Part shown: positions 4,607-36,476 of the stretch, piece by piece
How the letters are laid out: every line of letters begins with the position of its first letter
Position numbering within the stretch: the first letter of the stretch is position 1
Origin: Solibacillus sp. FSL H8-0523
Lineage (GTDB): Bacteria > Bacillota > Bacilli > Bacillales_A > Planococcaceae
Assembly (NCBI RefSeq): GCF_038051985.1
Contig: NZ_CP150291.1
Location: forward strand, 434,001 to 498,000
Length of the DNA stretch: 64,000 nucleotides
Direction of reading: 5' to 3'
Position numbers and translations under genes: made by a program
The notes under the pieces: generated by a model
The model's database searches: none
Told to the model about the DNA's origin: nothing
Seen by the model: the letters and a program-made list of their open reading frames with translations, nothing else

Positions 4607-4725
4607 TTAAATTGATTCAGCTTGATTGAATCAATTTAAGCCCCGGCGGATGTCACAGATTTTTTAGAGGAGTTTTCAAATGAACTTGAAAAATCTGGAC
4701 AAGAGTTAGCTGAGGCGTAATTGAT
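4607..4725 (+). ncRNA. Candidate structured leader element D, copy 1 (upstream of DUF1450 gene)
   Basis: The element opens with a perfect 13-bp hairpin (TTAAATTGATTCA at 4607-4619 with 4627-4639), then GCCCCGGCGGATGTCACAG. A second hairpin follows, in which TGTCaCAGATTTTT pairs with AAAAATCTGgACA, and it ends in GAGGCGTAATTGATA. The same order of parts, with CGGCrGATGTyACrGATT and GGCGTAATTGATA conserved, occurs at 36341-36476. A plausible promoter (TTGAAG, 18 bases, TACAAT at 4591-4596) would start transcription at the first base of the element, and the downstream start codon is 27 bases after its end. A cis-acting leader RNA is inferred; a mobile repeat is the alternative. Confidence 0.5.
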
Positions 4726-4752
4726 ACTAGATAAGAAAGAGGTGTTGACACT

Positions 4753-4977
4753 ATGGCAAACTTATTCCACGTTTGCGATGAATGTCAGGCCGTTAATTTA
4801 AAGACGTTAATTCCCAAATTACGAGAAATTGATCCAGAAGCAACGATTGAAATTGGCTGTCATTCATATTGTGGTCCCGGCCGCAAAAAAACATTTACAT
4901 TCGTAAACAACCGTCCCGTAGCCGCGTTAACTGAAGAGGAGTTAATGGTAAAGGTGTTAGACAAACTAAAAAAGTAA
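4753..4977 (+). CDS. DUF1450 (YuzB-like) small cysteine protein
   Basis: A 74-residue cytosolic protein with CDEC near the N-terminus and [18 protein letters not shown] in the middle. The GC-x-x-x-CG core is typical of the DUF1450/YuzB family, thought to be thioredoxin-like or metal/Fe-S related. Biochemical role unknown. GAGGTG precedes the start. The gene is directly downstream of leader element D copy 1 and has its own terminator, so it is a single-gene unit. Confidence 0.75.
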
Positions 4978-4983
4978 TTACGT

Positions 4984-5019
4984 AAAATCGCGCGTCACGT
5001 ATGTAGACACGCGATTTTT
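4984..5019 (+). terminator. Rho-independent terminator after the DUF1450 gene
   Basis: AAAATCGCGcGTC pairs with GACaCGCGATTTT, followed by T and G. Confidence 0.8.
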
Positions 5020-5080
5020 GCCTTTACAATTCTTTTTTAGAGCTAACTTCATTATAATGAAGCAAAAGGAGGTCGGTTTT

Positions 5081-6385
5081 ATGACTACATATGGGCAAAT
5101 GAAAATGCAGGAAGAAAAAGTGTTTAAAGATCCCGTCCACCGCTATGTACATGTGCGTGACCAAGTGATTTGGGATTTAGTGAAGACGCGTGAATTTCAA
5201 CGTTTGCGCCGCATTAAACAGCTCGGTACAACTTACTTAGTATTCCACGGAGCAGAGCATAGCCGCTTTAGCCATTCACTCGGTGTATACGAAATTGTGC
5301 GTCGTATTATTGATGATGTGTTTAAAGGACGCCCGGAATGGGATGAATCAGAGCGCTTACTCGTTTTATGTGCGGCACTGTTGCACGATTTAGGACACGG
5401 ACCGTTTTCGCATGCATTTGAAAATGTATTTGAAACCGACCACGAAGAATTTACCCGTCGTATTTTATTAGAAGATACGGAGGTTAATGCGGTGTTGAGT
5501 CGTGTGGCACCCGATTTCCCGGAAAAAGTAGCACAGGTCATTGAAAAGACCTATCCAAACGAGTTGGTCGTGAGCCTGATTTCCAGTCAAATTGATGCGG
5601 ATCGTATGGATTACTTACAGCGTGATGCCTATTATACGGGCGTTAGCTACGGCCATTTTGATATGGAGCGCATTATGCGTGTGATGCGTCCACGTAAAAA
5701 TGGCGTTGTCATTAAAGAAAGTGGGATGCACGCGGTAGAGCACTATATTATGAGCCGCTACCAAATGTACCTACAAATCTACCTCCACCCTGTATCTCGT
5801 AGCGCGGAAGTCATCCTCAATAATATTTTAAAACGAGTAAAGGTGCTATGGGCAGCGGGCTATCAATTTAAAGTACAGCCAAAGCCGTTTGAGTCGTTTT
5901 TTGAAAATAACGTGACGTTAGAAGATTATATTGCACTTGATGAAAGCATTATGCTGGCGTATTTCCAATTTTGGATGAATGAAGACGATGCAATTTTACG
6001 TGATTTAAGCCGCCGTTTTGTGAACCGTCGCCTTTTCCAATATCAAAATTTAAATCCGTTTGATCAGCCCGATGTCAATTCGGAATTACGCCGTTTATTT
6101 ACAGAAGCAGGATACGACCCGGATTATTATTTTGTGCATGATTCGACGTCTGATTTACCTTATGATTTTTATCGACCAGGTATCGAAGGGACGAAGAAGC
6201 CCATCTTTTTATTGATGCAAGACGGGGAACAATCCGAATTATCGGAGCATAGTCAAATCGTAGAAGCCATTGCAGGGCGTATTAAAGTCGATCATAAAGT
6301 GTATTATCCAGAGGAATTATTTGAGGATAAGAGCGTTCCACAAATCTTACGTGATGAAATTCGACAATTACTAAAACATATATAA
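5081..6385 (+). CDS. ywfO: HD-domain phosphohydrolase YwfO
   Basis: Member of the dNTP triphosphohydrolase-like HD superfamily; Bacillus YwfO is the named relative. ATG 5081 is used because AAAGGAGGTC ends six bases upstream; the frame remains open 21 codons further with no ribosome site. The 434-residue product begins with the typical DPVHRYV and RLRRIKQLG motifs, then GAEHSRFSHSLGV and the metal-binding ALLHDLGHGPFSHAFE, with the last metal ligand in SSQIDADRMDYLQRDAY. All expected HD residues are present, so it should be active on a nucleotide substrate not determinable here. Confidence 0.9.
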   Translation: MTTYGQMKMQEEKVFKDPVHRYVHVRDQVIWDLVKTREFQRLRRIKQLGTTYLVFHGAEHSRFSHSLGVYEIVRRIIDDVFKGRPEWDESERLLVLCAALLHDLGHGPFSHAFENVFETDHEEFTRRILLEDTEVNAVLSRVAPDFPEKVAQVIEKTYPNELVVSLISSQIDADRMDYLQRDAYYTGVSYGHFDMERIMRVMRPRKNGVVIKESGMHAVEHYIMSRYQMYLQIYLHPVSRSAEVILNNILKRVKVLWAAGYQFKVQPKPFESFFENNVTLEDYIALDESIMLAYFQFWMNEDDAILRDLSRRFVNRRLFQYQNLNPFDQPDVNSELRRLFTEAGYDPDYYFVHDSTSDLPYDFYRPGIEGTKKPIFLLMQDGEQSELSEHSQIVEAIAGRIKVDHKVYYPEELFEDKSVPQILRDEIRQLLKHI

Positions 6386-6387
6386 TG

Positions 6388-6427
6388 AGAAAAAGGACTT
6401 ATCACCAATGAGGAGTGATAAGTCCTT
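6388..6427 (+). terminator. Rho-independent terminator after ywfO
   Basis: AAAAGGACTTATCAC pairs perfectly with GTGATAAGTCCTTTT across a 10-base loop. Confidence 0.9.
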
Positions 6428-6641
6428 TTCGCATTCAAATTTTGATTATTGGGAGATTTATCGACTAGACGAGTTCACAGTTGAGAGATAAGAACCATTC
6501 TACAATTACTAGCTCGTCTTTTACACGCTATTTTGGAAGTTGGATAAATAACATGCAATCAGGGTAAAACTTAATTAGAAGTAACGTAACTTGTCCTACC
6601 TCAATTAAATTGCGCTATACAGCGTTTTAGGAGAGATGTTT

Positions 6642-6851
6642 ATGACAAAAATGAAAATGGCACTATTACCAGCACTGCTTGTTTTACAAATGATTGTTGT
6701 TCCGGTTGAAAGTCAGGTAGCTGCAAATACACAAGATATAGCAGACTCCTTAAAACCAATAACTCTTGGTTTTAACTTAGGGATGTTGTTAGTCGGTATA
6801 ATTATTCTCATTACAGGATTTTTATTATTTAAAATACAGAGCCGTAAATAA
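6642..6851 (+). CDS. Small exported or membrane protein (69 aa), unknown
   Basis: Start at ATG 6642 is set by AGGAG eight bases upstream (another ATG two codons earlier is too close to that site). A hydrophobic N-terminus (about residues 7-22) looks like a signal or anchor. A short polar stretch QVAANTQDIADSLKP follows, then a membrane helix (about residues 42-63) ending in basic KIQSRK. Both termini therefore likely bracket a small outside loop. No family recognised; codon use is like its neighbours. Confidence 0.5.
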   Translation: MTKMKMALLPALLVLQMIVVPVESQVAANTQDIADSLKPITLGFNLGMLLVGIIILITGFLLFKIQSRK

Positions 6852-6916
6852 GCACATAGAATAATGGCAACATTAATAAGTTTATTTTTCATAAATTGAC
6901 TTCCGTCTACAAAATA

Positions 6917-6944
6917 AAAAGAGAACCATGTCTGATTCTCTTTT
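6917..6944 (-). terminator. Terminator of the tautomerase gene
   Basis: On the minus strand, AAAGAGAATC / GGTTCTCTTT type stem followed by TTTTTATTTT. Confidence 0.75.
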
Positions 6945-6965
6945 ACCCAAAATGTTTAAATTGTA

Positions 6966-7151
6966 TTACTTGTCGCTATAACGCACGCCAGCTGTTGCGT
7001 AATGGCCTTTTGACATCTCTTCAATAATAATAGATACGTTTTCGATTGGTGCGTTCACTGTTTTTGAAACAGCTTGTGTAACTTCTTCTACAAGCGCGCG
7101 CTTTTGTTCATCCGTGCGGCCTTCGATCATTTTGATTGTAACGATTGGCAT
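6966..7151 (-). CDS. 4-oxalocrotonate tautomerase-family enzyme (YwhB-like)
   Basis: A 61-residue 4-OT type tautomerase. Pro2, exposed after Met removal, is the catalytic base in this family (MPIVTIKMIEGR), and Arg12 in EGRTDEQK is the usual substrate-binding arginine. The natural substrate is unknown; the Bacillus relative YwhB sits in the same neighbourhood next to ywhD. Transcribed divergently from ywhD across a 65-bp gap. Confidence 0.85.
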   Translation of the reverse strand: MPIVTIKMIEGRTDEQKRALVEEVTQAVSKTVNAPIENVSIIIEEMSKGHYATAGVRYSDK

Positions 7152-7216
7152 AAAGTCGCCTCCTAAGTAAAATATAGTGTATAGTAATTATAATAGCTTA
7201 TTTGGAGGTATTTACA

Positions 7217-7729
7217 ATGGCGAATAATGAAAATTCAAAACCAAAAATGGGATTTACAATCATAAAAAACGATCCAACTGATGGACATAAAGGCTTTGGC
7301 ATTGGCTCACTTTCTTTAGAGAATGTGTCACCAGTCATTTTGGATGTCGCAGAAAAAACAGCGGTCGTAGATATCGGCGCAATGCATGCGAAAAGTGAAG
7401 TCGAGCGCGGTATTAAATTTACCGTGAACCGTGAAGATTCTGAAGGTGGTAAAGACTACTGGCTTGTATGGGTAACGATTGATCATAAAGAATCTGGTGC
7501 CTATTTTGCGGGCGTAACAGCTTGTGAAATGGTCGTAAACCGTGAAAAACGTCGTGGCTATAAAATTTTAGCAGATCATGTCAATCGAATGGATAAATCA
7601 ATGAAGCGTAAAATTATCGTTGATCATATGGACGCTGCTTCGAAAAAAACATTAGCCGACTTTTTAAAAGGTCATGATGAGACAATGTGGTTAAACAGCG
7701 ACGAACAGTTACGTAACGATTTAGCATAG
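7217..7729 (+). CDS. ywhD: YwhD family protein
   Basis: A 170-residue conserved cytosolic protein of the YwhD family. ATG 7217 is preferred (TTGGAGG eight bases upstream); the frame also starts with an ATG five codons earlier, before the ribosome site. Motifs such as KGFGIGSLSLENVSPVI and KDYWLVWVTIDHKE are characteristic by my recollection of the family. No catalytic function is known. The order ywhB-ywhD-pbpG is conserved with Bacillus. Confidence 0.8.
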   Translation: MANNENSKPKMGFTIIKNDPTDGHKGFGIGSLSLENVSPVILDVAEKTAVVDIGAMHAKSEVERGIKFTVNREDSEGGKDYWLVWVTIDHKESGAYFAGVTACEMVVNREKRRGYKILADHVNRMDKSMKRKIIVDHMDAASKKTLADFLKGHDETMWLNSDEQLRNDLA

Positions 7730-8102
7730 TGTTTATTTGTTAAAAAAAGGGTGTTTTATTGAGGCGTTACATTTAATGTGCAGTCAATTACTTTTTTAGG
7801 AAAATGAATTAAATCCTTGAACAATATGTGACAGTTCTGGCACAAAGAAAATCCGTGGTTGAAACTGCTTCCAAAAGAAAGTAAACTGAACTTAAAGCTT
7901 GCAAAATAGTAGGCTAGGACACGTGGAAAATGAATAGTGATGAGGATTATGCGGCATTTGCAATTTCCCAAGCCGGATGCCCCATGATTCTCATCCTTTC
8001 GTTGACCACAATAGAAAAGCTCTTTCGTTTTACGGACTTGAACCGGAAACGAAAGAGCTTTTTTATTTCTTCTTATTTGGATAATAAATAATATGATGTT
8101 TT
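7730..8102. other. Gene-poor gap between ywhD and pbpG
   Basis: No credible gene seen. A minus-strand reading frame of 118 codons covers 7756-8112 but has no ribosome site, overlaps a strong terminator and reads as low-quality protein. The stretch may be a decayed gene; no family was recognised in any frame. Its right end is the terminator at 8015-8064. Confidence 0.5.
8015..8064. terminator. Bidirectional terminator between ywhD and pbpG
   Basis: AAAAGCTCTTTCGTTT pairs with AAACGAAAGAGCTTTT over a 16-base loop, with a T-run on the right and AAAA on the left; probably the main terminator for pbpG on the minus strand too. Confidence 0.85.
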
Positions 8103-10175
8103 TTATTCCCAAAAACTTTTGAGGGCTTCAAACGGGTTGCCTTCCCAGAAGTTGCCCCACGTATCGGTGTTGAAAAATTCAAACGATGAACAAGATTCAG
8201 TCGGCACATCCATCGCTTTTAAATAAACAACACGCTCACTGCCACAAGCTTTATTGGCTAGTTTGCCACTTTTAATATCGATTGCTACGGGCTCAACGCC
8301 ATTTGGAAGCGTAAATGCTTCGTTTGCCTTGCCATCAAGTGCAGCTTCCATAAAATCAATCCATACTTGCTTCGAAGCCGCCATATCTGCTTGGACCGAT
8401 AACGTTTTGCCCTGATCATAGCCATTCCAAACGCCAGCTGTTAGGCTCGGTGTAAAGCCAAGCATCCATTGGTCTGAATTCGTTGTCCCTGATTTTGCCG
8501 CGTACGTATGCGTCATACGTGAACGCAGAGACAGTCCGGTTGCAGGGGAGTAATCGCTAAAAATCGGGTCAAATAGTCCGGTCATCATATGCGTTAATAC
8601 AGCCGCATCTTCTTTTGTAATGACCTGTTCTTTTTCAGGTGCTTTATATTCGTAAACAACCTTGCCTTTTGCATCGGTAATCGAGAGAACGGTTGTCGCC
8701 TGGCGTTTTTCGCCACCAGCAGCAAGTATGTTGTAGGCATTTGTTAAATCATAAAGCGAATTTTCCTGTGTACCGAGCGCTACAGCTGGATTGTCCTTCT
8801 CGGAATAAGTAAGGCCAAAGCGTTTTTGTACATCGCGGAATGCCCGGTAGCCAATATCCTCTAGTGTTTTTACCGCGTAGACATTATCTGAAATGGCGAG
8901 CGCCTGTGCCATTGATAATTCGTGATCGGCGTATTTTTTATTAATGTTTTGCGGTGTATACGTGGCACGACCGCTATCATACGTAAATGTCGTTTGACCT
9001 ACGTCTAGAAACGTCATCGGATTATAGCCTTTTTCAAGCGCTGCTGCGTATAAAATCGGCTTAATTGCAGAACCAGGTTGACGATTGCCGAGCGCCACAC
9101 GGTTAAATGAGCTCGTGCTATAATCGCGTCCACCGACAAGTGCTGTCACGTAACCTGTATCAGCATCCATACTAACAAAACCAACCTGTAATTCGCTATT
9201 AGGCATGTTTTTTTCGATGGCCTGTTCAGCTAAACGTTGGTGAGCTTGGCTTAATGTCGTTTGAATCGTCCAGCCACCCTCACTAATGTTTAAATTTTTC
9301 GCGGCTAAAATCGCACTCGCTTCATCCCAAACAACATCTAAAAAGTAAGGGGCAATCGATTTTGTCGCAATCCATTCGTCACTTTTTAAAATCACTTGTT
9401 CTCCCTCGGCACGCGTTTTTTCCTCAGCGGTAATTTTACCTTGCTCACCCATTAAACGCAGAATCACGTGCTGACGGTTTGTCGCTTTTTCTAGGTTATT
9501 AAGCGGCGAATAATACGTCGGCCCCTTAGGCACACCAGCAAGCATCGATGCTTCTGATAACGTTAAATCCTTCGAAGACTTGCCGAAAAAGTAACGGCTT
9601 GCTGCTTCCACCCCGTACATGCCATGCCCGTAATACACGGTATTTAAGTAACCTTCTAAAATTTCCTCTTTTGAGTAAAATAACTCTAAACGATATGCAT
9701 AAAGCATTTCATTAATTTTTCGAGTCCATGTTTTTTCATGTGTTAAATAGAGATTACGTGCGTATTGCTGGGTCAATGTGCTAGCACCCTGTACTTTACT
9801 ACCAGCTTTAATGTCTGCTAACACAGCACCTGCAATACGTGAATAGTCGAAGCCACCGTGGCTAAAGAAGTCCTTATCTTCTACCGCAATTGTCGCATCG
9901 ATTAAATAAGGTGAAATATCCTTATATTCAGTCCAGTAACGACGCTCTTCGGTGAAATAATCCCCGATTTGGTGGTTGTCGCTATCTAAAAAAATCGATG
10001 CTTTGGGCACGGTAAGTGGCGGTGCTCCAGCAACTTGTGCATATATACGCAATGAAAGGAGGGTGACAGCGACAAAACATAAAAAGGCGATGGCAGTAAG
10101 ACCAATTTTTTTGCCAAATTTTTTACGATTCTGCTTTTTTTGATATTGCTGTCTGTTCAACTCATTCCACCTCAT
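8103..10175 (-). CDS. pbpG: Class A penicillin-binding protein (PbpG/YwhE-like)
   Basis: Bifunctional cell-wall synthase of 690 residues, the size of Bacillus PbpG. A basic cytoplasmic tail and one membrane helix (about residues 22-44) lead into the GT51 glycosyltransferase: catalytic Glu99 in VEDKDFFSHGG and QGASTLTQQYARNLYL. The transpeptidase has all three motifs: SAIK (Ser369 nucleophile, Lys372), SDN (429-431) and KSGTTNSDQW (561-570). It polymerises and crosslinks peptidoglycan outside the membrane; Bacillus PbpG is spore-associated. It follows ywhD as in Bacillus, but speE, normally next, is absent. Confidence 0.93.
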   Translation of the reverse strand: MRWNELNRQQYQKKQNRKKFGKKIGLTAIAFLCFVAVTLLSLRIYAQVAGAPPLTVPKASIFLDSDNHQIGDYFTEERRYWTEYKDISPYLIDATIAVEDKDFFSHGGFDYSRIAGAVLADIKAGSKVQGASTLTQQYARNLYLTHEKTWTRKINEMLYAYRLELFYSKEEILEGYLNTVYYGHGMYGVEAASRYFFGKSSKDLTLSEASMLAGVPKGPTYYSPLNNLEKATNRQHVILRLMGEQGKITAEEKTRAEGEQVILKSDEWIATKSIAPYFLDVVWDEASAILAAKNLNISEGGWTIQTTLSQAHQRLAEQAIEKNMPNSELQVGFVSMDADTGYVTALVGGRDYSTSSFNRVALGNRQPGSAIKPILYAAALEKGYNPMTFLDVGQTTFTYDSGRATYTPQNINKKYADHELSMAQALAISDNVYAVKTLEDIGYRAFRDVQKRFGLTYSEKDNPAVALGTQENSLYDLTNAYNILAAGGEKRQATTVLSITDAKGKVVYEYKAPEKEQVITKEDAAVLTHMMTGLFDPIFSDYSPATGLSLRSRMTHTYAAKSGTTNSDQWMLGFTPSLTAGVWNGYDQGKTLSVQADMAASKQVWIDFMEAALDGKANEAFTLPNGVEPVAIDIKSGKLANKACGSERVVYLKAMDVPTESCSSFEFFNTDTWGNFWEGNPFEALKSFWE

Positions 10176-10239
10176 TTATAAAGTATTTGGCGTGCAATAA
10201 AAATTTCATCATTAATGGATAAAAATCACAGAAATTCTC

Positions 10240-10267
10240 TTGCACTTTTAGTGAAAACAACTATACT
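10240..10267 (+). promoter_or_regulatory. Candidate promoter for speB
   Basis: TTGCAC (10240-10245) and TATACT (10262-10267) with a 16-base spacer, followed by a small hairpin CACTTTttAAAGTG near the expected transcript start. It implies a leader of about 190 bases before speB. Confidence 0.45.
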
Positions 10268-10358
10268 TTGTCGTAGCACTTTTTAAAGTGTCGAATCATG
10301 TCAGTTGCACTTAATTATACGAAAATAGCGAACGAAAGTTTCATTTGATGAATTTAGT

Positions 10359-10460
10359 ATGAGCAAATTCAGTGCAACCTATGCAAACTTAATGAAAGAT
10401 GAACGACATAAAAGGCAAATGACAACTCCAATACATAGAAAGCTTGGTGGGTATAAATGA
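10359..10460 (+). CDS. Possible 33-codon upstream ORF overlapping speB start
   Basis: ATG 10359 opens a frame of 33 codons ending in TGA at 10458-10460, overlapping the speB ATG in the coupling arrangement ATGA. The predicted peptide is rich in Lys, Arg and His in its second half (MKDERHKRQ, then HRKLGGYK). No clear Shine-Dalgarno precedes either ATG (10359 or internal 10392), so translation is doubtful. The speB ribosome site GGTGGG lies inside it. Confidence 0.25.
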   Translation: MSKFSATYANLMKDERHKRQMTTPIHRKLGGYK

Positions 10461-11329
10461 GATTTGACGAGACGTATGCAGGGAATATGTTTATTAAAAG
10501 CAATCAAAATTACGAGGAAAGTAAGGCAGTGCTTTACGGAATGCCAATGGACTGGACAGTAAGCTACCGTCCGGGTCAACGTTTTGGCCCAGCACGTGTT
10601 CGTGAAGTATCAATCGGCTTAGAAGAATATAGCTTCTATTTAGATCGTGAATTAGGCGATGTTCCTTTTTTTGATGCGGGTGATATTCCACTACCATTCG
10701 GTAACGCGGAAAAATCATTAGCGGAAATTAAAACATTTGTCCGTAAGGTGCTAGCAGATGGCAAAGTACCAATTGGTTTAGGCGGGGAGCACTTAGTGTC
10801 TTTACCGGTAATGGAAGCAGTGTATGAAAAGTATCCAGATTTAGCCGTGATCCACTTTGATGCCCATACCGATTTACGTACAGATTACGAAGGGGAACAG
10901 TACTCACACGCAACACCAATTCGTAAAATTGCCGATACAATCGGACCACAAAACGTTTACTCATTCGGTATTCGTTCAGGCTTAAAAGAAGAATTACAAT
11001 GGGCAAAAGAAAACGGCATGCACATCTCATTATTTGAAGTGTTCGAGCCATTAAAAGAAATTTTACCTACATTAAAAGGTCGTCCAGTATACGTAACAAT
11101 TGATATTGACGTATTAGACCCAGCACACGCACCAGGTACAGGTACAGTGGATGCAGGCGGGATTACACCAAAAGAGCTGTTAGCGTCAATCCATGAAATT
11201 GCACGTTCACAAGTGGATGTTGTGGGCTTTGACTTAGTAGAAGTAGCCCCAGTATATGATCACTCAGATATTACCGTGAACACAGCAGCGAAGTTAATTC
11301 GTGAAATGATTCTTGGTTGGGTGAAATAA
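10457..11329 (+). CDS. speB: Agmatinase SpeB
   Basis: Hydrolyses agmatine to putrescine and urea in polyamine synthesis. The length, 290 residues, is the same as Bacillus SpeB. The binuclear manganese site is complete: GLGGEHLVSLP, HFDAHTDLR and TIDIDVLDPAHAPGTG. In Bacillus it is the second gene of speE-speB after pbpG; here spermidine synthase speE is missing between pbpG and speB, so the putrescine-to-spermidine step must be encoded elsewhere or be absent. Confidence 0.95.
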   Translation: MRFDETYAGNMFIKSNQNYEESKAVLYGMPMDWTVSYRPGQRFGPARVREVSIGLEEYSFYLDRELGDVPFFDAGDIPLPFGNAEKSLAEIKTFVRKVLADGKVPIGLGGEHLVSLPVMEAVYEKYPDLAVIHFDAHTDLRTDYEGEQYSHATPIRKIADTIGPQNVYSFGIRSGLKEELQWAKENGMHISLFEVFEPLKEILPTLKGRPVYVTIDIDVLDPAHAPGTGTVDAGGITPKELLASIHEIARSQVDVVGFDLVEVAPVYDHSDITVNTAAKLIREMILGWVK

Positions 11330-11333
11330 AAAT

Positions 11334-11364
11334 AACGCATGACGATTTACTCGTCATGCGTTTT
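11334..11364. terminator. Terminator after speB
   Basis: AACGCATGACG pairs with CGTCATGCGTT around a 7-base loop, followed by TTATT; convergent with the GGDEF-family gene at 11372. Confidence 0.85.
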
Positions 11365-11371
11365 ATTATGC

Positions 11372-12442
11372 TTATTTTTTCAATTGATTATCATGACAAA
11401 TAAACGTAGAGGACTGTCTTTTGGCATTTGCTAGTGCACGGTATGCCGCGTTTAATAAGGGCGACAAGGCAGCATAGTGGTCAGAAGAACAAATCCCAAT
11501 TGCCGACGTAATTTGTAAGGTAGGGTCTTGCTTAAATACTAAATTTTTAATAGCATAATTTATTTGATTCGCTATTAAAATGGCTTCAGCAGGTGCTGTA
11601 TCGACAAGCACAATATAAAATTCATCACTATCAATTCTGCTGATATAGGTATCTTTAGGTAATTGCAGTTGAATTGTTTCGGCAATTTTAGAAAAGAATT
11701 CATCGCCCGCCTCGTAGCCATATTGATGATTAATCGCGCTAAATTTCCGTAAATCTAAATGCAGTAACTCAAATGAAATTTTAGCTTGAATGAGCCACGT
11801 TAACTTGAGCTCTGTTGCAATGTGGTTTGGTAGTTGCGTGAGTAAATCCATTTGCTTTAAGCGATAAATTTGCTTAATTTGTTTATCGCGGTGATCAAGC
11901 TGTAATAAAATTTGGCGCAGTAAATAAAAAATCACAGATGAACAGATAAAATAAAGGATTAAAAAATAGATACTTTCCATTGAACAACGGTAATAAATAA
12001 GTAACAACGAAATATGCTCAAATGTTATGATAAAAAAATAGATTGGTATATTGCGGTACGTGATCGGATGTTTGCGACTGACAAATGTAAGCGCAATTGT
12101 ATTAATAAATACGTTGAGCATCATAATAAATGCCAGTGTAGACGTGTACATGAGTAAATAACGACCACTAACAATAATCATACCCGTAATAAAAAGCGCC
12201 CATGGTCCACCCAGTAAGCCACTAAAAACAATGAAAATATTACGGTTATGGATTAATACGCCATTTGCAAACGGTGTCGTAATGACCGTTAAAATAAGAG
12301 CTGCTACGCCAAATGTAATACCAACAAGCACGATCTTATATTTTTTTATGAATGGTTTATGTTCATATTGGATAAATGCCCAGTAAATTAATAGTGTAAA
12401 ACTAAACAAAATAGCAAAATTACTAATAAATTCTAAAAACAT
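11372..12442 (-). CDS. Membrane GGDEF-family protein with degenerate active site
   Basis: A 356-residue protein: five or six membrane helices (residues 5-180) of the sensor type containing GLLGGPWALFITGMI, a coiled linker, then a GGDEF fold (about 195-345). The signature is DSDEF (residues 271-275) instead of GGDEF, so loss of cyclase activity is likely; such domains often bind GTP or act as partners. It lies 31 bp downstream of a paralogue with an intact motif, probably in one operon. GAGGAAA precedes the ATG. The signal sensed is unknown. Confidence 0.8.
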   Translation of the reverse strand: MFLEFISNFAILFSFTLLIYWAFIQYEHKPFIKKYKIVLVGITFGVAALILTVITTPFANGVLIHNRNIFIVFSGLLGGPWALFITGMIIVSGRYLLMYTSTLAFIMMLNVFINTIALTFVSRKHPITYRNIPIYFFIITFEHISLLLIYYRCSMESIYFLILYFICSSVIFYLLRQILLQLDHRDKQIKQIYRLKQMDLLTQLPNHIATELKLTWLIQAKISFELLHLDLRKFSAINHQYGYEAGDEFFSKIAETIQLQLPKDTYISRIDSDEFYIVLVDTAPAEAILIANQINYAIKNLVFKQDPTLQITSAIGICSSDHYAALSPLLNAAYRALANAKRQSSTFICHDNQLKK

Positions 12443-12473
12443 ATGATTTCCTCTTCGTATAAAGTGATAGCCA

Positions 12474-13556: not shown

Positions 13557-13684
13557 GGTAGACTCCTTTATCAAACATCATCTCAAATTTTAGGAAGGGC
13601 TGACTATTTGTTTCGCACAATTAAGGGGGATTTAGTTGAAATCAGATTAATTGTAAGAGTAAGCGCAAAGATTTGGTTTCTATC

Positions 13685-13714
13685 TTGCTTAAAACAAGCG
13701 TTTTCGCCTATAAT
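13685..13714 (+). promoter_or_regulatory. Candidate promoter for ywiB-argS
   Basis: TTGCTT (13685-13690), 18-base spacer, TATAAT (13709-13714), about 40 bases upstream of the ywiB start. Confidence 0.5.
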
Positions 13715-13753
13715 AAAAAGGTTATAGAAATAAATATATGGGAGCTGACTGCT

Positions 13754-14191: not shown

Positions 14192-14193
14192 TG

Positions 14194-15861: not shown

Positions 15862-15872
15862 TTGTTAAAATT

Positions 15873-20467: not shown

Positions 20468-20552
20468 TCGATTTGGTAGAATTATCTGAAAATTTAATCG
20501 TACCTGCATACAAAAATGCTTTTTTCCGCTATAATAAAAGATATCAATTTCA

Positions 20553-20724
20553 TATGGATTGTAAAGGTTCTTATTTCACAAGTAAGAAGTAAAAGGGAAA
20601 TCGGTTCAAATCCGATGCGGTCCCGCCACTGTAAATGCGAGTTTTTAGCATAAAGCCACTGTTCACACGGGAAGGCGCTACAAAACGTTTCAGCATAAGC
20701 CAGGAGACCTGCCTTTATAATGCC
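20553..20724 (+). ncRNA. Cobalamin riboswitch
   Basis: Carries the B12-box landmarks in order: a P1/P2 region with AAAGGTTCTTATTTCAC, then AAAAGGGAAATCGGTTCAAA and TCCGATGCGGTCCCGCCACT with GTAAATGCGA, and finally the conserved AAGCCAGGAGACCTGCCT. It lies upstream of btuF with a terminator in between, so adenosylcobalamin (or a related cobalamin) is expected to switch off B12 import. A -10 box TATAAT at 20530-20535 is suitably placed. Confidence 0.95.
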
Positions 20725-20794
20725 CAACGAGTAACCTACGAGGATAGGATGTGGCGGATAAATTCTTTTTACATTGAATGTTATTTGCATGCAC

Positions 20795-24955: not shown

Positions 24956-24994
24956 ATTTTATTATTTAATTTTCAGAATTAATGACAAATTTTG

Positions 24995-27417: not shown

Positions 27418-27507
27418 ATTTAATGAGCATAAAGTTTTAAGTTCAGTATATTCAAATAATTTTGTTGCGAAATAAAAAAGGATTTAATACAATGAAATTA
27501 GTTAAAA

Positions 27508-27537
27508 AATGAGAGTATTATATGCTCTCATTTTTTT
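27508..27537 (+). terminator. Terminator after fadF
   Basis: AAATGAGAG pairs with CTCTCATTT, then TTTT; separates fadF from the thiolase operon. Confidence 0.85.
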
Positions 27538-27549
27538 AAAACATGAAAT

Positions 27550-27563
27550 TGAGCGAGCGTTCA
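27550..27563 (+). promoter_or_regulatory. Second TetR-type operator candidate, upstream of thiolase
   Basis: TGAGCGAGCGTTCA fits the same TGAryGnnCryTCA pattern as the fadF operator at 25000-25013. It overlaps a possible -35 (TTGAGC); the -10 is weak. Confidence 0.5.
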
Positions 27564-27641
27564 GTCGAATGTTAAACAATGGGATTATGAGAAGGGTTTT
27601 TACAAAAAAAGATCGATATTTCAAACAAAGGGGTGTATGGA

Positions 27642-28832: not shown

Positions 28833-28844
28833 GGGGATGAAGGA

Positions 28845-29696
28845 ATGAACATTGAAAAAGTGATGGTCATTGGTGCAGGGCAAATGGGGTCAGGCATTGC
28901 TCAAGTGTGTGCACAAGCAGGATTTACGGTTATTTTGAACGATATGAAAGACGAGTTTTTCGAACGAGGTCTAGCGACGATTACGAAAAATTTAACGCGA
29001 GATGTTGAAAAAGGGCGTAAAACAGAGGAAGAAAAGGCACAAGTGTTGGCGCGTATTACAAAATCAACGTCAATTGATGATGCCAAACATGTAGATATCG
29101 TCATTGAAGCAGCTGTTGAAAATATGGAAATTAAACAATCGATTTTCAAGCAGCTTGACGCGATTGCACCAGCCCATACGATTTTAGCAACAAATACATC
29201 AAGCTTACCCATTACTGAAATTGCGGCTGTAACAAACCGTCCAGAACAAGTAATCGGTATGCACTTCATGAATCCAGTACCAGTCATGCAACTTGTTGAA
29301 ATAATTCGCGGGTTAGCAACAGCGGATGAAGTATACGAAGCGGTTGCCGCGATGACAAAGCAAATCGGCAAAACAGGCGTTGAAGTAAATGATTTCCCAG
29401 GCTTTATTTCAAACCGTATTTTACTGCCAATGATCAACGAAGCAATTTATGCGCTGTATGAAGGTGTGGCAACAAAAGAGGCCATTGATGATGTCATGAA
29501 GATGGGCATGAACCATCCGATGGGGCCGTTAACGCTTGCTGATTTTATTGGCCTTGATACATGCTTATCGATTATGGAAATTTTACATGAAGGTCTTGGT
29601 GATAGTAAGTACCGCCCATGTCCACTACTACGTAAATACGTGGCGGCTGGCTGGTTAGGGAAAAAATCTGGACGTGGCTTCTATGTCTACGAATGA
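28845..29696 (+). CDS. 3-hydroxybutyryl-CoA dehydrogenase (MmgB/Hbd type)
   Basis: A 283-residue short 3-hydroxyacyl-CoA dehydrogenase. Rossmann motif [19 protein letters not shown] binds NAD; catalytic His-Glu pair in [29 protein letters not shown] and [15 protein letters not shown] follow. It oxidises 3-hydroxyacyl-CoA to the thiolase substrate. AAGGGGATGAAGGA precedes the ATG. Confidence 0.93.
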
Positions 29697-29707
29697 GGTG
29701 AGCTTCC

Positions 29708-30844
29708 GTGAACTTACAATTTACCGATGAACAGCTGATGATGCGGAATATGGTTCGGGATTTTGCACAAACAGAAATCGCGCCGTTTATCGAGCAAATG
29801 GAACAAGGAGAGTTCCCACGCCACTTGCTAAAAAAAATGGGCGAGCTTGGCTTAATGGGGATTACCGCACCTGCTGAATACGGCGGCGCTGAAATGGATT
29901 TTACATCATATATCTTAGCGATTCATGAGCTATCTAAGGTAAGCGCGGTGATGGGGGTTATTTTATCAGTGCATACATCGGTAGGGACCAATCCCATTTT
30001 GTATTTCGGTAGTGATGCACAAAAAGAGAAGTATGTACCAAAGCTAGCTGCCGGTGAATACATAGGCGCGTTCTGTTTAACAGAAACAGGTGCAGGTAGT
30101 GATGCCGGTTCACTGAAAACGCGTGCTGTACGTGACGGTGCGGATTATGTGTTAGACGGGTCGAAGGTGTTCATCACCAATGGTGGAGAAGCAGATGTGT
30201 ACATCGTGTTTGCTTCAACGAATCCAGAAACCGGAACACGTGGTATTTCCGCATTTATCGTAGAAAAGGATACACCGGGTTTTATCGTTGGAAAAGACGA
30301 AAAAAAGATGGGGCTTCACGGCTCACGTACGGTGCAGCTGACATTTGAAAATATGCGTATTCCGGCCGAAAACTTGCTTGGTGAAGAAGGGCAAGGCTTT
30401 AAAATTGCGATGGCCAACTTAGATGTCGGGCGTATCGGGATTGCTGCACAAAGCTTAGGAATTGCAGAGGCGGCGCTTGAAGCCGCGACAGATTATGCAA
30501 AAGAGCGCGAGCAATTTGGCAAACCAATCGCACAGCAACAAGCAGTCGGTTTTAAATTAGCAGACATGGCAACAGCCGTTGAAGCATCAAAGTTACTCGT
30601 GTACAGTGCGGCACATTTACGTAGTGAAGGGTACCCATGTGGCAAGGAAGCATCGATGGCGAAGCTTTTCGCGTCACAAACGGCAATGGATACAGCAATC
30701 GAAGCGGTTCAAATATTCGGTGGTTACGGCTATACCGAGGACTACCCAGTAGAGCGCTATTTCCGCGACGCCAAGGTGACACAAATTTACGAGGGAACGA
30801 GCGAAATCCAGCGCATTGTCATTAGTAAGCATGTGCTTGGGTGA
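29708..30844 (+). CDS. Acyl-CoA dehydrogenase (first of two)
   Basis: A 378-residue flavoprotein that makes the alpha-beta double bond of acyl-CoA and passes electrons to ETF. GTG start with GAGGTGAG upstream. Motifs: CLTETGAGSDAGSLKT, VFITNGGEADVYIVFA, and QIYEGTSEIQRIVISKHVLG. The catalytic base Glu is in the usual place (IYEGTSE). Chain-length preference cannot be read from sequence; context suits short or branched chains. Confidence 0.92.
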   Translation: MNLQFTDEQLMMRNMVRDFAQTEIAPFIEQMEQGEFPRHLLKKMGELGLMGITAPAEYGGAEMDFTSYILAIHELSKVSAVMGVILSVHTSVGTNPILYFGSDAQKEKYVPKLAAGEYIGAFCLTETGAGSDAGSLKTRAVRDGADYVLDGSKVFITNGGEADVYIVFASTNPETGTRGISAFIVEKDTPGFIVGKDEKKMGLHGSRTVQLTFENMRIPAENLLGEEGQGFKIAMANLDVGRIGIAAQSLGIAEAALEAATDYAKEREQFGKPIAQQQAVGFKLADMATAVEASKLLVYSAAHLRSEGYPCGKEASMAKLFASQTAMDTAIEAVQIFGGYGYTEDYPVERYFRDAKVTQIYEGTSEIQRIVISKHVLG

Positions 30845-30880
30845 CGTAAAAATATAAACAAACAAAGGGGTTATGGGAAA

Positions 30881-32017
30881 ATGAACTTTCAATTATCAGA
30901 AGAACACCAACAATTACGTGAAATGATTCGCGACTTTGCGATTAACGAAGTAGCACCAACAGCGGAACACCGCGATGAGCACGAGGAATTTGACCGTGGG
31001 ATTTTCGACAAAATGGCGGAGCTTGGCTTAACAGGTATTCCATGGCCAGAAGAGTACGGCGGAGCAGGTTTTGACTACTTAGCATACTGTATCGCAGTAG
31101 AAGAATTATCACGCGTATGTGCATCAACAGGGGTAACATTATCGGCACATACATCACTTGCGGGCTGGCCGATTTATAAATACGGCAACGAAGAGCAAAA
31201 GCAAAAATACTTACGCCCAATGGCAGAAGGTAAAAAAATCGGCGCCTACGGTTTAACAGAGCCAGCTTCAGGGTCTGATGCGGGCGGTATGAAAACATAC
31301 GCGGTTAAAGACGGGGATGACTACATCTTAAATGGTTCTAAAATCTTCATTACAAACGGCGGGATTGCTGATATTTATGTTGTATTTGCTGTCACAGATC
31401 CGAATGCAAGAAACAGCACAACGGCATTTATCGTGGAAGCATCGACACCAGGTTTCTCTGTTGGGAAGAAAGAAAGAAAACTAGGCATTCGTTCATCACC
31501 AACAACAGAAATCATTTTCGACAACTGCCGCATTTCAAAAGAAAATGTACTTGGTGAAGAAGGCCAAGGCTTTGTGATTGCAATGAAAACATTAGATGGT
31601 GGCCGTAACGGAATTGCTGCACAAGCAGTAGGGATCGCACAAGGCGCATTAGATGCAGCGGTTGATTATGCAAAAGAGCGTGTACAATTCGGTAAGCCAA
31701 TTACTGCAAATCAAGGTGTATCCTTCAAATTAGCGGATATGGCGACAGAAATCGAAGCATCTCGTTTATTGACGTACCAAGCAGCATGGTTAGAATCAAA
31801 TGATTTACCATACGGAAAAGCATCAGCTATGGCAAAGCTACTTGCTGGGGATACAGCGATGAAGGTAACGACAGAAGCTGTTCAAGTATTCGGTGGCTAC
31901 GGCTACACGAAAGACTATCCAGTAGAGCGCTACATGCGTGATGCAAAAATTACGCAAATTTACGAAGGCACACAAGAGATCCAACGCCTAGTTATTTCGC
32001 GTATGATTACAAAATAA
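30881..32017 (+). CDS. Acyl-CoA dehydrogenase (second)
   Basis: A 378-residue paralogue of the preceding enzyme with the same length and motifs ([48 protein letters not shown]). The two differ at many positions, so they likely handle different acyl chains, for example straight versus branched. AAAGGGG sits about eleven bases before the ATG. The regulator gene begins four bases after its stop codon. Confidence 0.92.
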
Positions 32018-32020
32018 TGT

Positions 32021-32659
32021 ATGGCAACTAACGATAAGTTGCATGTGATCTCGTCAATAAAAGATGAAAATAAAATACTCGAGCGTCGTCAGCAAATTGT
32101 GAATGCCGGGGTGAAGCTCTTTAAAGAAAAAGGCTTTCACCGTGCCACAACACGTGAGCTCGCAAAAGCAGCAGGATTTAGCATCGGCACCTTATATGAA
32201 TACATTCGAACGAAGGAAGATGTGCTGTTTTTAGTGTGCGACGATATTTTTAATGAAGTAACAAAATGCTTATCGCAATTTCCGGCTGATAATGGCACGA
32301 TTACAGCACTTGAGGAAGCAATCCAGCAATATTATTTATTGATTGATACAATGCCTGAAGAATTTACGATTATGTACCAAGAAACGAAGTCGCTTCCAAA
32401 AGAGGCGATGCACTACATTTTGGATAAAGAACTAGAGATGGTGGCAATTTTCGAACGCATGCTAAAGGGCTGTGTAGAAGCAGGTAATTTAACGTTATCA
32501 GATGACGCGATCTATTTAGCGGCCAATCAAATTGTTGTTCAAGGGCAAAGTTGGGCATTTCGTAAATGGGCACTAAAAAAACGTTACACAATTGAAGATT
32601 ATATAAAATTGCAAACAACGATGTTTTTACAAGGCATTATGCAGTTTGAAGAACATTAA
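32021..32659 (+). CDS. TetR/AcrR-family regulator of the fatty-acid cluster
   Basis: A 212-residue regulator. N-terminal HTH: RRQQIVNAGVKLFKEKGFH, TTRELAKAAGFSIGTLYEYI. The ligand domain is TetR_C type, similar in role to Bacillus FadR, which senses long-chain acyl-CoA. No Shine-Dalgarno is visible; the ATG is four bases after the acyl-CoA dehydrogenase stop, so translation probably depends on reinitiation. Candidate operators are at 25000 and 27550. Confidence 0.85.
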   Translation: MATNDKLHVISSIKDENKILERRQQIVNAGVKLFKEKGFHRATTRELAKAAGFSIGTLYEYIRTKEDVLFLVCDDIFNEVTKCLSQFPADNGTITALEEAIQQYYLLIDTMPEEFTIMYQETKSLPKEAMHYILDKELEMVAIFERMLKGCVEAGNLTLSDDAIYLAANQIVVQGQSWAFRKWALKKRYTIEDYIKLQTTMFLQGIMQFEEH

Positions 32660-32660
32660 G

Positions 32661-32712
32661 AAAACTGCCATGTAGAGCGCGAGAAAAACGGAGCTTTATG
32701 TGGCAGTTTTTC
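32661..32712 (+). terminator. Terminator after the TetR gene
   Basis: AAAACTGCCA (32661-32670) pairs with TGGCAGTTTT (32701-32710), with an inner GAGC/GCTT-like extension, then T. Confidence 0.85.
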
Positions 32713-32745
32713 ATTATTCTGAGATAACAAAGGGGTTAATACAAC

Positions 32746-35700
32746 ATGGGGAAAATCGAAGCATACAAACCAAAAAACTACGTCCGTTTCGTAACGGCAT
32801 CAAGCTTGTTTGATGGGCACGACGCATCTGTTAATATTATGCGCCGTATTTTACAGTCAAGCGGCGCGGAAGTTATTCACTTAGGGCATAATCGTTCGGT
32901 GGAAGAAGTAGTAAACGCCGCGATTCAAGAGGATGCGCAAGGGGTGGCGGTATCTTCTTATCAAGGCGGTCATATGGAGTACTTTAAATATATGTATGAC
33001 CTTCTGCGTGAAAAAGGCGCACCGCATATTAAAATTTACGGCGGTGGTGGTGGGGTAATCCTACCGCGTGAAATTAAAGAGCTTCATCAATACGGTATTG
33101 CAGGGATTTTCTCGCCGGAGGATGGCCGACAAATGGGCTTACAAGGCATGATTAATAGAAAGCTAGAGGGCGCGGATTATTCAACATTACAGGGAAATTA
33201 CAACGAGCTTGTTGAAAAATTAACAACAAACACGCCTGAGATTTTGGCAAATTTAATTACAGCGGCTGAAAAAGGCGGCACGGAAGAAATCGACGCTATG
33301 TTAGAACTGGCGCGCACAAAATCAAAAAATACACCGATTTTAGGGATTACAGGTACAGGGGGAGCGGGTAAATCATCCTTAACCGATGAATTGATTCGCC
33401 GTTTCCTACAAGAGTTCCCAGATAAAAAAATCGCGATTTTATCAGTTGACCCAACAAAGCAAAAAACAGGCGGCGCACTGCTTGGTGACCGTATTCGTAT
33501 GAACGCCATTTTCAATAATCGTGTGTATATGCGAAGTCTGGCTACACGCGGCTCTCGTACAGAATTATCAAGCTCAATTGGCGATGTATTGGATGTCGTA
33601 CGCGCAGCAGGTTTTGACTTAATCGTCGTTGAAACAAGTGGGATTGGTCAAGGTGACGCAGAAATCACCAATTATACAGACCTGTCGATGTATGTGATGA
33701 CAAGTGAATTTGGTGCGCCAACACAGCTAGAAAAAATCGATATGATTGATTACGCCGATTTAATTGCCATCAACAAATTTGAACGTAAAGGATCAGAAGA
33801 TGCACTGCGCCAAGTACAAAAGCAATTCCAACGCTCACGTGAACTATGGGATGACGCAATCGATACAATGCCAGTGTTCGGTACGATTGCCTCACAATTT
33901 AATGATTTAGGTACGAATTCATTATTCGCAGCACTTGTAGCGAAAATTAATGAAAAGTTCGGCTTGGATTGGCAAACATCTTATGAGCAATTTGTAAAAA
34001 CGCAAAAGCAAAATATCGTCATTCCGAATGACCGTCGTTATTATTTACGTGAACTGTCAGAAACGGTACGTAATTATCATAAGCAAGCTGAGCAGCAAGC
34101 GATCCTTGCAACGAAATGGTATCAGCTTGAAGGAACAAAGCTGCAATTAGCAGAGACAGAAAACGCATTAATCGCCTCACTAGATGCATTAATTGAAGGC
34201 GTACAAAACGAACTAACAAACGAATCAAAACGTATTCTAACAAATTGGCAAACACTGAAAGAGGCGTACGCCGGTGATGAGTTCATTACAAAAGTACGCG
34301 ATAAAGAAATTAAAACGACTTTACGCACAGAATCACTGTCTGGCTTAAAAATTCCAAGAGTTGCACTGCCAAGCTTTAAAGATTACGGCGATATTTTACG
34401 TTGGGTATACAAAGAAAATGTACCAGGCGAGTTCCCGTATACAGCAGGCGTTTTCCCGTTCAAGCGTGAAGGTGAAGATCCGAAGCGTCAATTTGCGGGC
34501 GAAGGTACACCAGAGCGTACAAACAAACGCTTCCACTACTTATCAAAAGACGATGATGCAAAACGCCTTTCAACGGCATTTGACTCCGTAACATTATACG
34601 GTGAAGACCCACATACACGTCCCGATATTTACGGGAAAGTAGGGGAGTCTGGTGTAAGTATTTGTACGCTAGACGATATGAAAAAGCTGTATGCAGGCTT
34701 TGATTTATGTGCACCGTCTACGTCTGTGTCAATGACGATTAACGGACCAGCACCAATCATTCTCGCAATGTTTATGAATACGGCCATTGACCAACAAGTA
34801 CAAAAGCGTGAAGCAGAACTTGGTCGTACGTTAACGGTAGAAGAATTTACTGAAACACGTGAACAGACGTTACAAGTTGTGCGCGGTACGGTGCAGGCCG
34901 ATATTTTAAAAGAAGATCAAGGACAAAATACATGTATTTTCTCTACCGAATTTGCATTACGTATGATGGGTGATATTCAACAGTATTTCATCGATCATAA
35001 AGTACGTAACTACTATTCTGTGTCGATTTCGGGCTACCACATCGCAGAAGCTGGGGCGAACCCGATTTCACAATTAGCCTTTACACTGGCAAATGGCTTT
35101 ACGTACGTGGAATATTACTTAAGCCGCGGAATGAATATCGATGACTTTGCGCCGAACTTAAGCTTCTTCTTCTCAAATGGCTTAGACCCAGAGTACACAG
35201 TGATTGGTCGTGTGGCACGCCGTATTTGGGCCGTTGTTATGCGCGATAAGTATGGTGCGAATGAACGTTCACAAAAGTTGAAATACCATATTCAAACATC
35301 CGGCCGTTCTTTACACGCACAGGAAATTGATTTCAATGATATTCGTACAACATTGCAGGCGTTAATGGCACTTCAAGATAACTGTAACTCACTGCACACA
35401 AATGCCTATGACGAAGCAATTACAACACCAACGGAAGAATCCGTGAGACGCGCGATGGCGATTCAAATGATTATTACAAAAGAGCACGGCCTATCGAAAA
35501 ACGAAAACCCATTACAAGGGGCGTTCATTATTGAAGAATTAACGCAACTCGTAGAGCAAGCAGTGTTAGAAGAATTCGACCGTATTAATGATCGTGGTGG
35601 GGTACTAGGTGCCATGGAAACGCAGTATCAGCGCGGTAAAATTCAAGAAGAATCGATGTACTATGAGCACTTGAAGCATTCAGGTGAACTACCAATCATC

Positions 35701-35988
35701 GGCGTGAACACGTATTTAAATCCAAATCCAGCGTCAGATGAAGCGATTAACAATATGGAAATTGCACGTGCATCAACAGACGAAAAGGATTTACAAATTG
35801 CGAATCTAGAGAGCTTTAAACAGCGTCACATTTCATCGAATGAAGCCGCAATTGAGGCGTTAAAGCAAGTGGCAAAAACAAACGGTAATATTTTCGAACA
35901 GCTCATGGAAACAGTAAAGGTTGCGAGCCTAGGTCAAATTACAAACGCATTATATGAAGTTGGCGGACAATATCGCCGAAACATGTAA
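32746..35988 (+). CDS. icmF: Fused isobutyryl-CoA mutase IcmF (B12 domain, G-protein chaperone and mutase)
   Basis: A 1080-residue protein in the IcmF order. The adenosylcobalamin-binding domain comes first: DGHDASV with His25 as lower axial ligand, then SSYQGGH and [13 protein letters not shown] MeaB-like GTPase follows (P-loop [10 protein letters not shown] at 203-212, then [14 protein letters not shown]), and the mutase barrel is at the C-terminus. AGVFPFKR and NPISQLAF carry the Phe and Gln that, from published work on IcmF versus pivalyl-CoA mutase, favour isobutyryl/butyryl-CoA. It links valine or branched-chain breakdown to straight-chain acyl-CoA. Own ribosome site AAAGGGG. Confidence 0.95.
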
Positions 35989-36137
35989 ACAAAAAATGCT
36001 ACTTTAGTCGTCATAAATTCTTTTAGCATTAAAATTTTGCAAAAAATATAAAAATCGCGGTTTGAAAGTCCACGTTTGTTAAAATTTTCGTTATACTAAG
36101 TAATACGAAAAAATTTACAGAAAGAAGGTACGGCATA

Positions 36138-36296
36138 GTGCGACAATACTTACATTATATTTTAATTCTAGTTTGCCTTGTGGGGACCTTCTTTTTATAT
36201 AACAAACAACTAGCCGCGATACCGCTACTTCTGTTATCATTAATTTTGTTTTACGTTGCGTACAAAAAAGCAACAAATTTAAAAAACAAGAAATGA
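36138..36296 (+). CDS. Small membrane protein (52 aa), unknown
   Basis: GTG 36138 with GAAGG about nine bases upstream opens a 52-codon frame. The product is two hydrophobic helices (about 5-20 and 27-42) separated by YNKQLAAIP and ending in a strongly basic tail YKKATNLKNKK. It lies alone between icmF and the rpoE leader element. The pattern of a two-helix hairpin with a basic end is coherent for a real small protein, but no family is recognised. Confidence 0.55.
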   Translation: MRQYLHYILILVCLVGTFFLYNKQLAAIPLLLLSLILFYVAYKKATNLKNKK

Positions 36297-36340
36297 AACT
36301 AGCATAGTAGTAGCATGTTTGTATATAATGGGTATTATGC

Positions 36341-36476
36341 TTAACTTTATTTCAGTCGGTGAGTAATCACCAACTGAATAAAGTTAAGGTCTTCGGCAGA
36401 TGTTACGGATTCGAAGAGAAGTTCTTTTCGAGCGAAAAGTCGAATCCGAACGCAATTACGCCGGGGCGTAATTGAT
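36341..36476 (+). ncRNA. Candidate structured leader element D, copy 2 (upstream of rpoE)
   Basis: The first hairpin is long: TTAACTTTATT-CAGT with GGTGA/TCACC at its tip and ACTGAATAAAGTTAA as the return strand. Then CTTCGGCAGATGTTACGGAT leads into a second hairpin (CGGATTCG / CGAATCCG with CTTTTCG/CGAAAAG inside) and a third (CAATTACGCC / GGCGTAATTG), ending GATA. It starts about 11 bases after a TATAAT at 36324-36329, and its end is 27 bases before the upstream candidate start of rpoE. Same layout as 4607-4725. Confidence 0.5.

Follow-up and report, generated by a model that had tools for sequence, protein, structure and literature searches.

Two leader-like structured sequences of Solibacillus as probable copies of a dispersed, mobile and non-autonomous repeat that is a partial host of the Bacillaceae-1 RNA

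Among described systems, those closest to the sequences studied here are the BOX repeats of Streptococcus pneumoniae, the IS200/IS605 insertion sequences, and, for part of the copies, the Bacillaceae-1 RNA (RF01690). A leading-strand excess of 60.8% has been reported for BOX, as have terminal inverted repeats and target duplications (PMC3049150). IS200/IS605 elements are described as transposing through single strands without duplication, with a short, fixed target located 5' of the left end and a hairpin at each end (PMC7290912). RF01690 is classed in Table 1 of PMC2864571 as an RNA of Bacillaceae that is not cis-regulatory, and CsrA binding has been proposed for its reverse complement, with the strand being uncertain (PMC4333381). 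Here, we analysed a 64,000-nt stretch of the genome of Solibacillus sp. FSL H8-0523 (contig NZ_CP150291.1, positions 434,001 to 498,000 of the forward strand; hereafter "the window"), in which an initial annotation had singled out two sequences of similar build, at 4607-4725 and 36341-36476, as either a cis-regulatory leader family or a mobile palindromic repeat. Our data indicate that both pieces very probably belong to a mobile, non-autonomous repeat that is dispersed in the genome and keeps a three-hairpin fold, and not to a conserved leader family.

The number of copies was well above the two first reported. A covariance model (R1; 97 positions, from just 5' of the shared block to the right end) was built on an alignment of nine copies from the same genome, and recovered 19 copies there at E≤1e-4, plus weaker remnants. 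All 16 genomes of the genus contained copies (3, 7, 8, 13, 13, 13, 15, 18, 18, 19, 19, 19, 93, 98, 149 and at least 150), a difference of up to 50-fold inside one genus. When the family was sampled, with 34 candidates per genome scored, a copy was detected in 61 of 121 genomes (12 of the 61 from the genus) and in 13 of 19 genera, and most of the 15 copies printed from other genera had the same ends. At pyrG loci of named Bacilli, a clear copy was present in 2 of 80, namely Lysinibacillus sphaericus OT4b.31 (E 3e-16) and L. mangiferihumi (E 7e-6). Likeness beyond chance was also evident without the model, as the second window copy matched another full-length copy in the genome by blastn (E 3e-13, 73% identical) along with partial ones, and the degenerate block CGGCrGATGTyACrGATT occurred eight times in the own genome (three on one strand, five on the other) vs none for a reversed control pattern. 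Sizes ranged from 78 to 377 nt when left-end and right-end consensus sites were paired over four 400-kb stretches. Plasmids and phages gave no blastn match to one consensus-like copy used as the query, and viral contigs gave none to one exact 20-base pattern. No description of this repeat was found among open-licence papers, which is weak evidence of absence.

The same loci were empty in sister species, with precise junctions that lay mostly just 3' of TAA or TTAA. Filled and empty sites were compared over 400 kb each of four genus genomes (labelled G012, G008, G002 and G000), of which G012 and G008 are sisters among the 16 and provided many filled/empty pairs. Junctions were examined for 17 copies in 21 comparisons; nine copies were readable (items 33, 34, 39, 38, 19, 23, 36, 32 and 24), and with the DUF1450 site of the window, ten junctions were read. 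Four of these (the DUF1450 site and items 34, 38 and 39) were exact or within one base on both sides, and six had small differences. A target-site duplication was needed at none of the ten, the DUF1450 site being exact, and item 39 can alternatively be read with a 2-bp TT duplication. The empty-site base before the junction was A in all ten, and the last three bases were TAA in seven, the others being CAA, GAA and TTA. TTAA formed the left flank in 39 of 47 copies, which, unlike the empty sites, were rows pre-selected by the pairing score of the first hairpin and thus lean towards TTAA. Several copies, with junctions read by eye, apparently lay directly 3' of a TAA stop codon. Empty sites, copy-number differences and occurrence on both strands therefore bear out the initial suggestion of a mobile palindromic repeat, and the added idea that it settles near promoters finds no support in the distances to gene starts (see below).

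Within the window, the parts and positions first given for both sequences, including their common order, were confirmed. As judged from the empty sites, the initial TTAA is flank (the target), as is the A after GAT, so that the elements proper read as 4611-4725 and 36345-36476. The features of the two loci, in which H1 to H3 denote the three hairpins and UTR the untranslated region, are as follows:

4591..4596, + strand: native -10-like TACAAT upstream of copy 1, found too in element-less genus genomes
4607..4610, + strand: TTAA left flank of copy 1, the insertion target, which also pairs with the H1 foot (empty site of G001 and G002: GGTTAA/ACTAGAT, the slash marking the junction)
4607..4639, + strand: H1 of copy 1, 14 bp with a 5-nt loop (folding; H1 covariation)
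4611..4725, + strand: element copy 1, 115 nt, in the 5' UTR of the DUF1450 gene (filled/empty comparison)
4631-4726, + strand: R1 match to copy 1, 79.6 bits, the copy itself being part of the model
4651..4700, + strand: H2 stem of copy 1, TGTC-A-CAGATT../AATCTG-GAC (folding, alignment, covariation)
4701..4725, + strand: degenerate H3 and right end AATTGAT of copy 1 (alignment)
4753..4977, + strand: DUF1450 gene (PF07293; Pfam 32.2 bits, cut-off 30.1)
36324..36329, + strand: native -10-like TATAAT of rpoE, kept in 16 of 16 genus genomes
36341..36344, + strand: TTAA left flank (target) of copy 2 (orthologous empty sites: ATGCTTAT)
36341..36387, + strand: H1 of copy 2 (folding)
36345..36476, + strand: element copy 2, 132 nt, in the 5' UTR of rpoE (filled/empty comparison)
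36381-36477, + strand: R1 match to copy 2, 90.3 bits, the copy itself being part of the model
36402..36451, + strand: H2 stem of copy 2, GTT-A-CGGATTCG../CGAATCCG-AAC (folding)
36453..36476, + strand: H3 of copy 2, CAATTACGC/GCGTAATTG (36453-36474), and right end (folding)
36504..37061, + strand: rpoE (HARE-HTH, PF05066; 38.1 bits, cut-off 25.9), start codon uncertain

Both copies fold far more stably than expected, with RNA folding energies of -40.0 kcal/mol for copy 1 (shuffle mean -22.3, z -5.9) and -53.9 kcal/mol for copy 2 (shuffle mean -28.9, z -7.2); in neither case did any of 200 shuffles fold as well as the real sequence. H3 is clear in copy 2 and degenerate in copy 1. The initial annotation had both sequences starting right after a -10 box; such boxes do exist at both sites, but they lie 14 and 15 nt away from the element and are native. 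In an Rfam scan of the window at gathering scores, neither copy was matched and RF01690 gave no hit.

The full element reads, in order, left end CTTNATTCAG(C), H1 with a very variable sequence, CCyCCGGCGG, H2 (consensus stem GTY-A-CRGATT .. AATCYG-RAC), H3 (consensus AATTACGCC/GGCGTAATT) and right end AATTGAT. On reading, the two ends are not inverted copies of one another, so there are no terminal inverted repeats. In an alignment of 53 R1 hits fitted to the model, two-sided compensatory change was found in 14 of 21 pairs (shuffle mean 4.6), with 92.3% of cells pairing. A second, MAFFT-based alignment, this time including H1, comprised 24 full short forms (21 of 28 short forms, the two window copies and one G014 copy, with seven short forms of unclear H1 left out); there, 17 of 37 pairs changed on both sides (shuffle mean 6.6) and 96.3% of cells paired, though its rows had been chosen with an H1 pairing score, which favours pairing. 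With partners shifted by one column, the pairing in this alignment fell to 41.5-47.5%, and the observed covariation was matched by 0 of 500 shuffles for each alignment, these shuffles ignoring relatedness among copies. The earlier observation of different sequence with the same fold in H1 thus holds, and the kept fold with changed sequence supports selection on structure, which could equally serve mobility.

We then compared the orthologous DUF1450 and rpoE loci across the genus (16 genomes). Only two genomes, G000 and G014, have the element at the DUF1450 site; in G001 and G002 this site reads GGTTAA joined directly to ACTAGATGAG, that is, the joined flanks of the filled site, and the copy that G012 has near DUF1450 lies elsewhere, about 120 nt farther upstream. 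At the rpoE site, R1 matched in eight of the 16 genomes at E<1e-8 and in G014 at 7e-4; an H1-like remnant alone was seen by eye in G003 and G004, and G001, G002, G009, G012 and G013 have no element. The -10 box of rpoE is kept with or without the element, including in named relatives outside the genus that lack it (e.g. L029, L035-L037), and the promoters at both window sites are native, not brought by the element. In a tree made from these loci, G001 and G002 branch inside G000 and G014, so that the element was either lost almost precisely at both sites or hit the same base repeatedly, and a site-precise process is implied either way; by reading, the two sites in these genomes contain 0 and 1 extra bases. 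Copy 1 resembled its counterpart in G014 no more closely than it did three copies of G002.

Genomic context was assessed with genes from a simple caller (coverage 75-78%), an H1 start approximated where unclear, and leading/lagging labels that assume the contig start as the origin and the terminus halfway. The first sample consisted of 46 of 53 R1 hits from four 400-kb stretches (the seven weakest, at E 0.001 or worse, were dropped), and the second, chosen half for lagging orientation, of 47 copies (1 of 49 hits dropped, plus one edge case). Overlap with a called gene by more than 15 nt was found for 0 of 46 and 1 of 47 copies, the latter slight. The gaps holding the first 46 copies were 30 tandem, 10 convergent and 6 divergent, and in tandem gaps 25 of 30 copies ran in the gene direction and five against it (p 3e-4), with co-directional to opposed copies at 24:2 between leading-strand genes and 1:3 between lagging-strand genes. 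Tandem copies of the second sample comprised 19 forward-leading, 9 reverse-lagging, 4 forward-lagging and 2 reverse-leading. Among 108 of 150 listed strong copies, namely those in three single-contig genomes, 77 had the leading orientation, a count confounded with gene direction. Over 47 same-strand tandem gaps from both samples, copies leaned towards the upstream stop codon (Kolmogorov-Smirnov p 3e-5), with 17 of 47 starting within 20 nt of it vs 10.8 expected under uniform placement, and 24 of 47 ended within 60 nt of the next gene start vs 23.4 expected. As individual cases, all read by eye, the copy at G000:C1:2946132-2946227 (L117) is located between a T-box-terminator-like sequence and the downstream gene start, and in two loci outside the genus (L391, L394) a copy lies apparently inside a NUDIX-hydrolase-like open reading frame.

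Could the element nevertheless act in the transcript? A leader family through which DUF1450 and rpoE are controlled in response to some signal would account for the stable, covarying fold, for the position of both window copies in sense 5' UTRs, and for the filled rpoE site in half of the genus genomes with further relics. We consider it very improbable, as only two of 16 DUF1450 sites are filled, promoters and genes are intact without the element, the rpoE element has decayed in G014, G003 and G004, and copies elsewhere occupy tandem, convergent and divergent gaps with no enrichment at start codons; the orthology comparison thus spoke against the leader proposal. The initial annotation had tied that proposal to covarying stems and to a non-random distance and orientation relative to genes, and the outcome is mixed: the stems covary and the orientation is non-random (25 of 30 tandem copies with the genes), and the distance to starts looks random. 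Alternatively, the repeat may spread as a mobile element but persist chiefly at places where it shields mRNA 3' ends or brings about termination; the co-directional tandem copies and the excess directly after stop codons can be cited for this. The target is, however, contained in the stop codon TAA and could by itself place copies there, and between lagging-strand tandem genes only one of four copies was co-directional in the even sample, though four of six in the stratified one; on balance, selection on the transcript appears unlikely.

The reading as a mobile repeat itself faces several difficulties, which we gather here. Junctions were unreadable in 8 of 18 copies (extra or unalignable bases), the rpoE site is kept in enough genomes that local co-option there is possible, and the orientation bias may only mirror gene orientation, since the leading-strand share of copies is close to that of genes (244 of 338 called genes on the + strand in the G012 stretch) and no bias was seen in non-tandem gaps (9 of 16 copies leading in the first sample). 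The mobilising enzyme was not found through searches with Y1_Tnp, TnpB and RVT_1, other transposase families not being searched. Y1_Tnp (PF01797) was present in 9 and TnpB (PF07282) in 6 of the 16 genus genomes, and neither was found in the burst genomes G001, G002 and G008, with the single Y1_Tnp of G012 having an internal stop; by eye, the ends of resident Y1/TnpB elements differ from those of the repeat. RVT_1 (PF00078) gave no match in G001 and G002 and one low-scoring match each in G008 and G012 (46 and 40 bits). An autonomous long form with an open reading frame was not recognised in the 1.6 Mb covered by end pairing (4 x 400 kb), where nine longer pairings below 8 kb were obtained; the two without another left end in between spanned opposite-strand genes and look like chance neighbours. 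The enzyme may possibly have been lost or be very divergent. TnpB matches numbered 19 in G012, many in elements with the same ends as one another, vs 0-4 in the other 15 genomes.

These searches bear on two further explanations. An IS200/IS605 ends-only element (PATE) moved by a resident Y1 TnpA fits the absence of target duplication, the fixed short target 5' of the left end (TAA before the junction, 7 of 10), the hairpins at both ends (H1 and H3) without terminal inverted repeats, and the leading-strand excess, which would correspond to an insertion bias to the lagging-strand template but is confounded with gene direction. Copy number, however, followed neither Y1 (rho -0.23) nor TnpB (rho 0.24), three burst genomes have no Y1 or TnpB, the resident ends differ, and R1 found a clear copy nearby at only 2 of 47 Y1/TnpB loci, which makes membership distinctly unlikely. 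Retrotransposition through RNA, with the reverse transcriptase supplied in trans, would agree with the strong structure and the lack of target duplication; given the RVT_1 results above and a rho of -0.36 between RVT_1 and copy number, we regard it as exceedingly improbable. A classical miniature inverted-repeat transposable element was rejected, as the ten junctions need no target-site duplication and terminal inverted repeats are missing, and a likeness of GTTAAGC to integron attC boxes was dropped as chance because the insertion boundary does not fit.

Some of the longer copies contain RF01690. When ten loci of the own genome were compared with Rfam at a lax threshold, RF01690 matched five longer copies at 58-70 bits. 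It takes one of two positions, either immediately 5' of the core (slot 1) or within the loop of H2 (slot 2). Across 40 loci chosen for carrying copies (L270-L309), all 12 RF01690 matches lay inside the element, nine in slot 1 and three in slot 2, with two of the slot 2 matches running on the other strand. In an unbroken 140-kb stretch of G012, all four matches were inside the element; in seven G002 stretches that total 140 kb and were picked partly for carrying copies, two of four were; and in the own genome, 6 of the 15 matches over the cut-off were, most there sitting in other hosts that look unlike this element. Over the 16 genomes, RF01690 counts rose with R1 counts (Spearman 0.86, p 1.6e-5), reaching 100, 89, 99 and 104 in the bursts. 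RF01690 is, in part, a cassette of this repeat, and the element is its host; open-licence papers found under RF01690's name showed no link to a mobile repeat. A more far-reaching proposal, which we make tentatively and rate as somewhat unlikely, is a structured mobile element of a new class, folded, duplication-free and TTAA-targeted, with an enzyme of no known family; the Bacillaceae-1 RNA would then serve the mobility system as a working cassette that can be exchanged, and would not be an independent small RNA (sRNA) gene.

Two further observations concern RF01690. It runs opposite to the host strand in the H2-loop slots of L305, L296 and L201; the cassette itself could move or flip, or the model could merely score both strands. 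At L139, L140, L144, L146 and L148-L152 in the own genome, RF01690 occurs in other surroundings of different build, several with a terminator-like hairpin close by, and these surroundings may be further modular repeat families.

Elsewhere in the window, Rfam matched a cobalamin riboswitch (20548-20730, + strand, 116 bits) and an L31 leader (46352-46382, + strand, 34.7 bits), and no others. A 192-nt direct repeat, 84% identical, at 38966-39157 and 46779-46970 is unrelated to this element. The rpoE gene (RNA polymerase delta) is adjoined by a CTP synthase gene:

37291-38895: CTP synthase gene

Overall, the data would be best explained by a mobile, non-autonomous element of about 80-380 nt that folds into three conserved hairpins and whose longer copies, in some cases, also contain the Bacillaceae-1 RNA as one cassette or two. 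Mechanistically, an enzyme acting in trans would recognise the folded ends in single-stranded DNA and would cut and join them at TTAA, in an IS200/IS605-like "peel and paste" manner, and the covariation would reflect selection for ends able to fold, exerted by the enzyme and perhaps also at the level of the transcript. The window copies would have landed just downstream of native promoters and should therefore be transcribed together with DUF1450 and rpoE, at the 5' end of their mRNAs, without needing to be conserved regulators. What stands out more is the carriage of RF01690: a good part of its copies in the family move within a mobile repeat, and its copy number, covariation and genomic distribution therefore cannot be read at face value as evidence of an sRNA regulon. 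More generally, covariation in the structure of a 5' UTR does not have to indicate a riboswitch, and the sister species, with sites filled in some and empty in others and with copy numbers from 3 to at least 150, offer a natural system for finding an enzyme of duplication-free transposition.

Compared with known systems, the element shares with REP/RAYT the character of high-copy palindromic intergenic repeats, but it is longer, has three hairpins, and occurs in three burst genomes with no Y1-type gene. The likeness to bcr1 of the Bacillus cereus group is that of a structured intergenic repeat for which a mobile character is reported (PMC2267715), taken from description and not from sequence. 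RF01690 is contained in some longer copies, but the window copies are without this RNA, and its other matches are in other hosts. With an IS200/IS605 PATE, the element has in common the absence of duplication, the short target 5' of the left end and the end hairpins, yet a matching TnpA or TnpB was not found in the 16 genus genomes; since the insertion habit is as described for IS200/IS605, the element works like one, and membership fails where tested. BOX, with its boxA-boxBn-boxC build, is likewise short, modular, hairpin-rich and intergenic, with optional internal cassettes and, subject to the confounding with gene direction, a leading-strand excess, but its terminal inverted repeats and target duplications are not seen in this repeat, the comparison being by description, not sequence. 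The closest architecture is thus that of pneumococcal BOX and the closest mechanism that of an IS200/IS605 ends-only element, with the repeat matching the full definition of neither.

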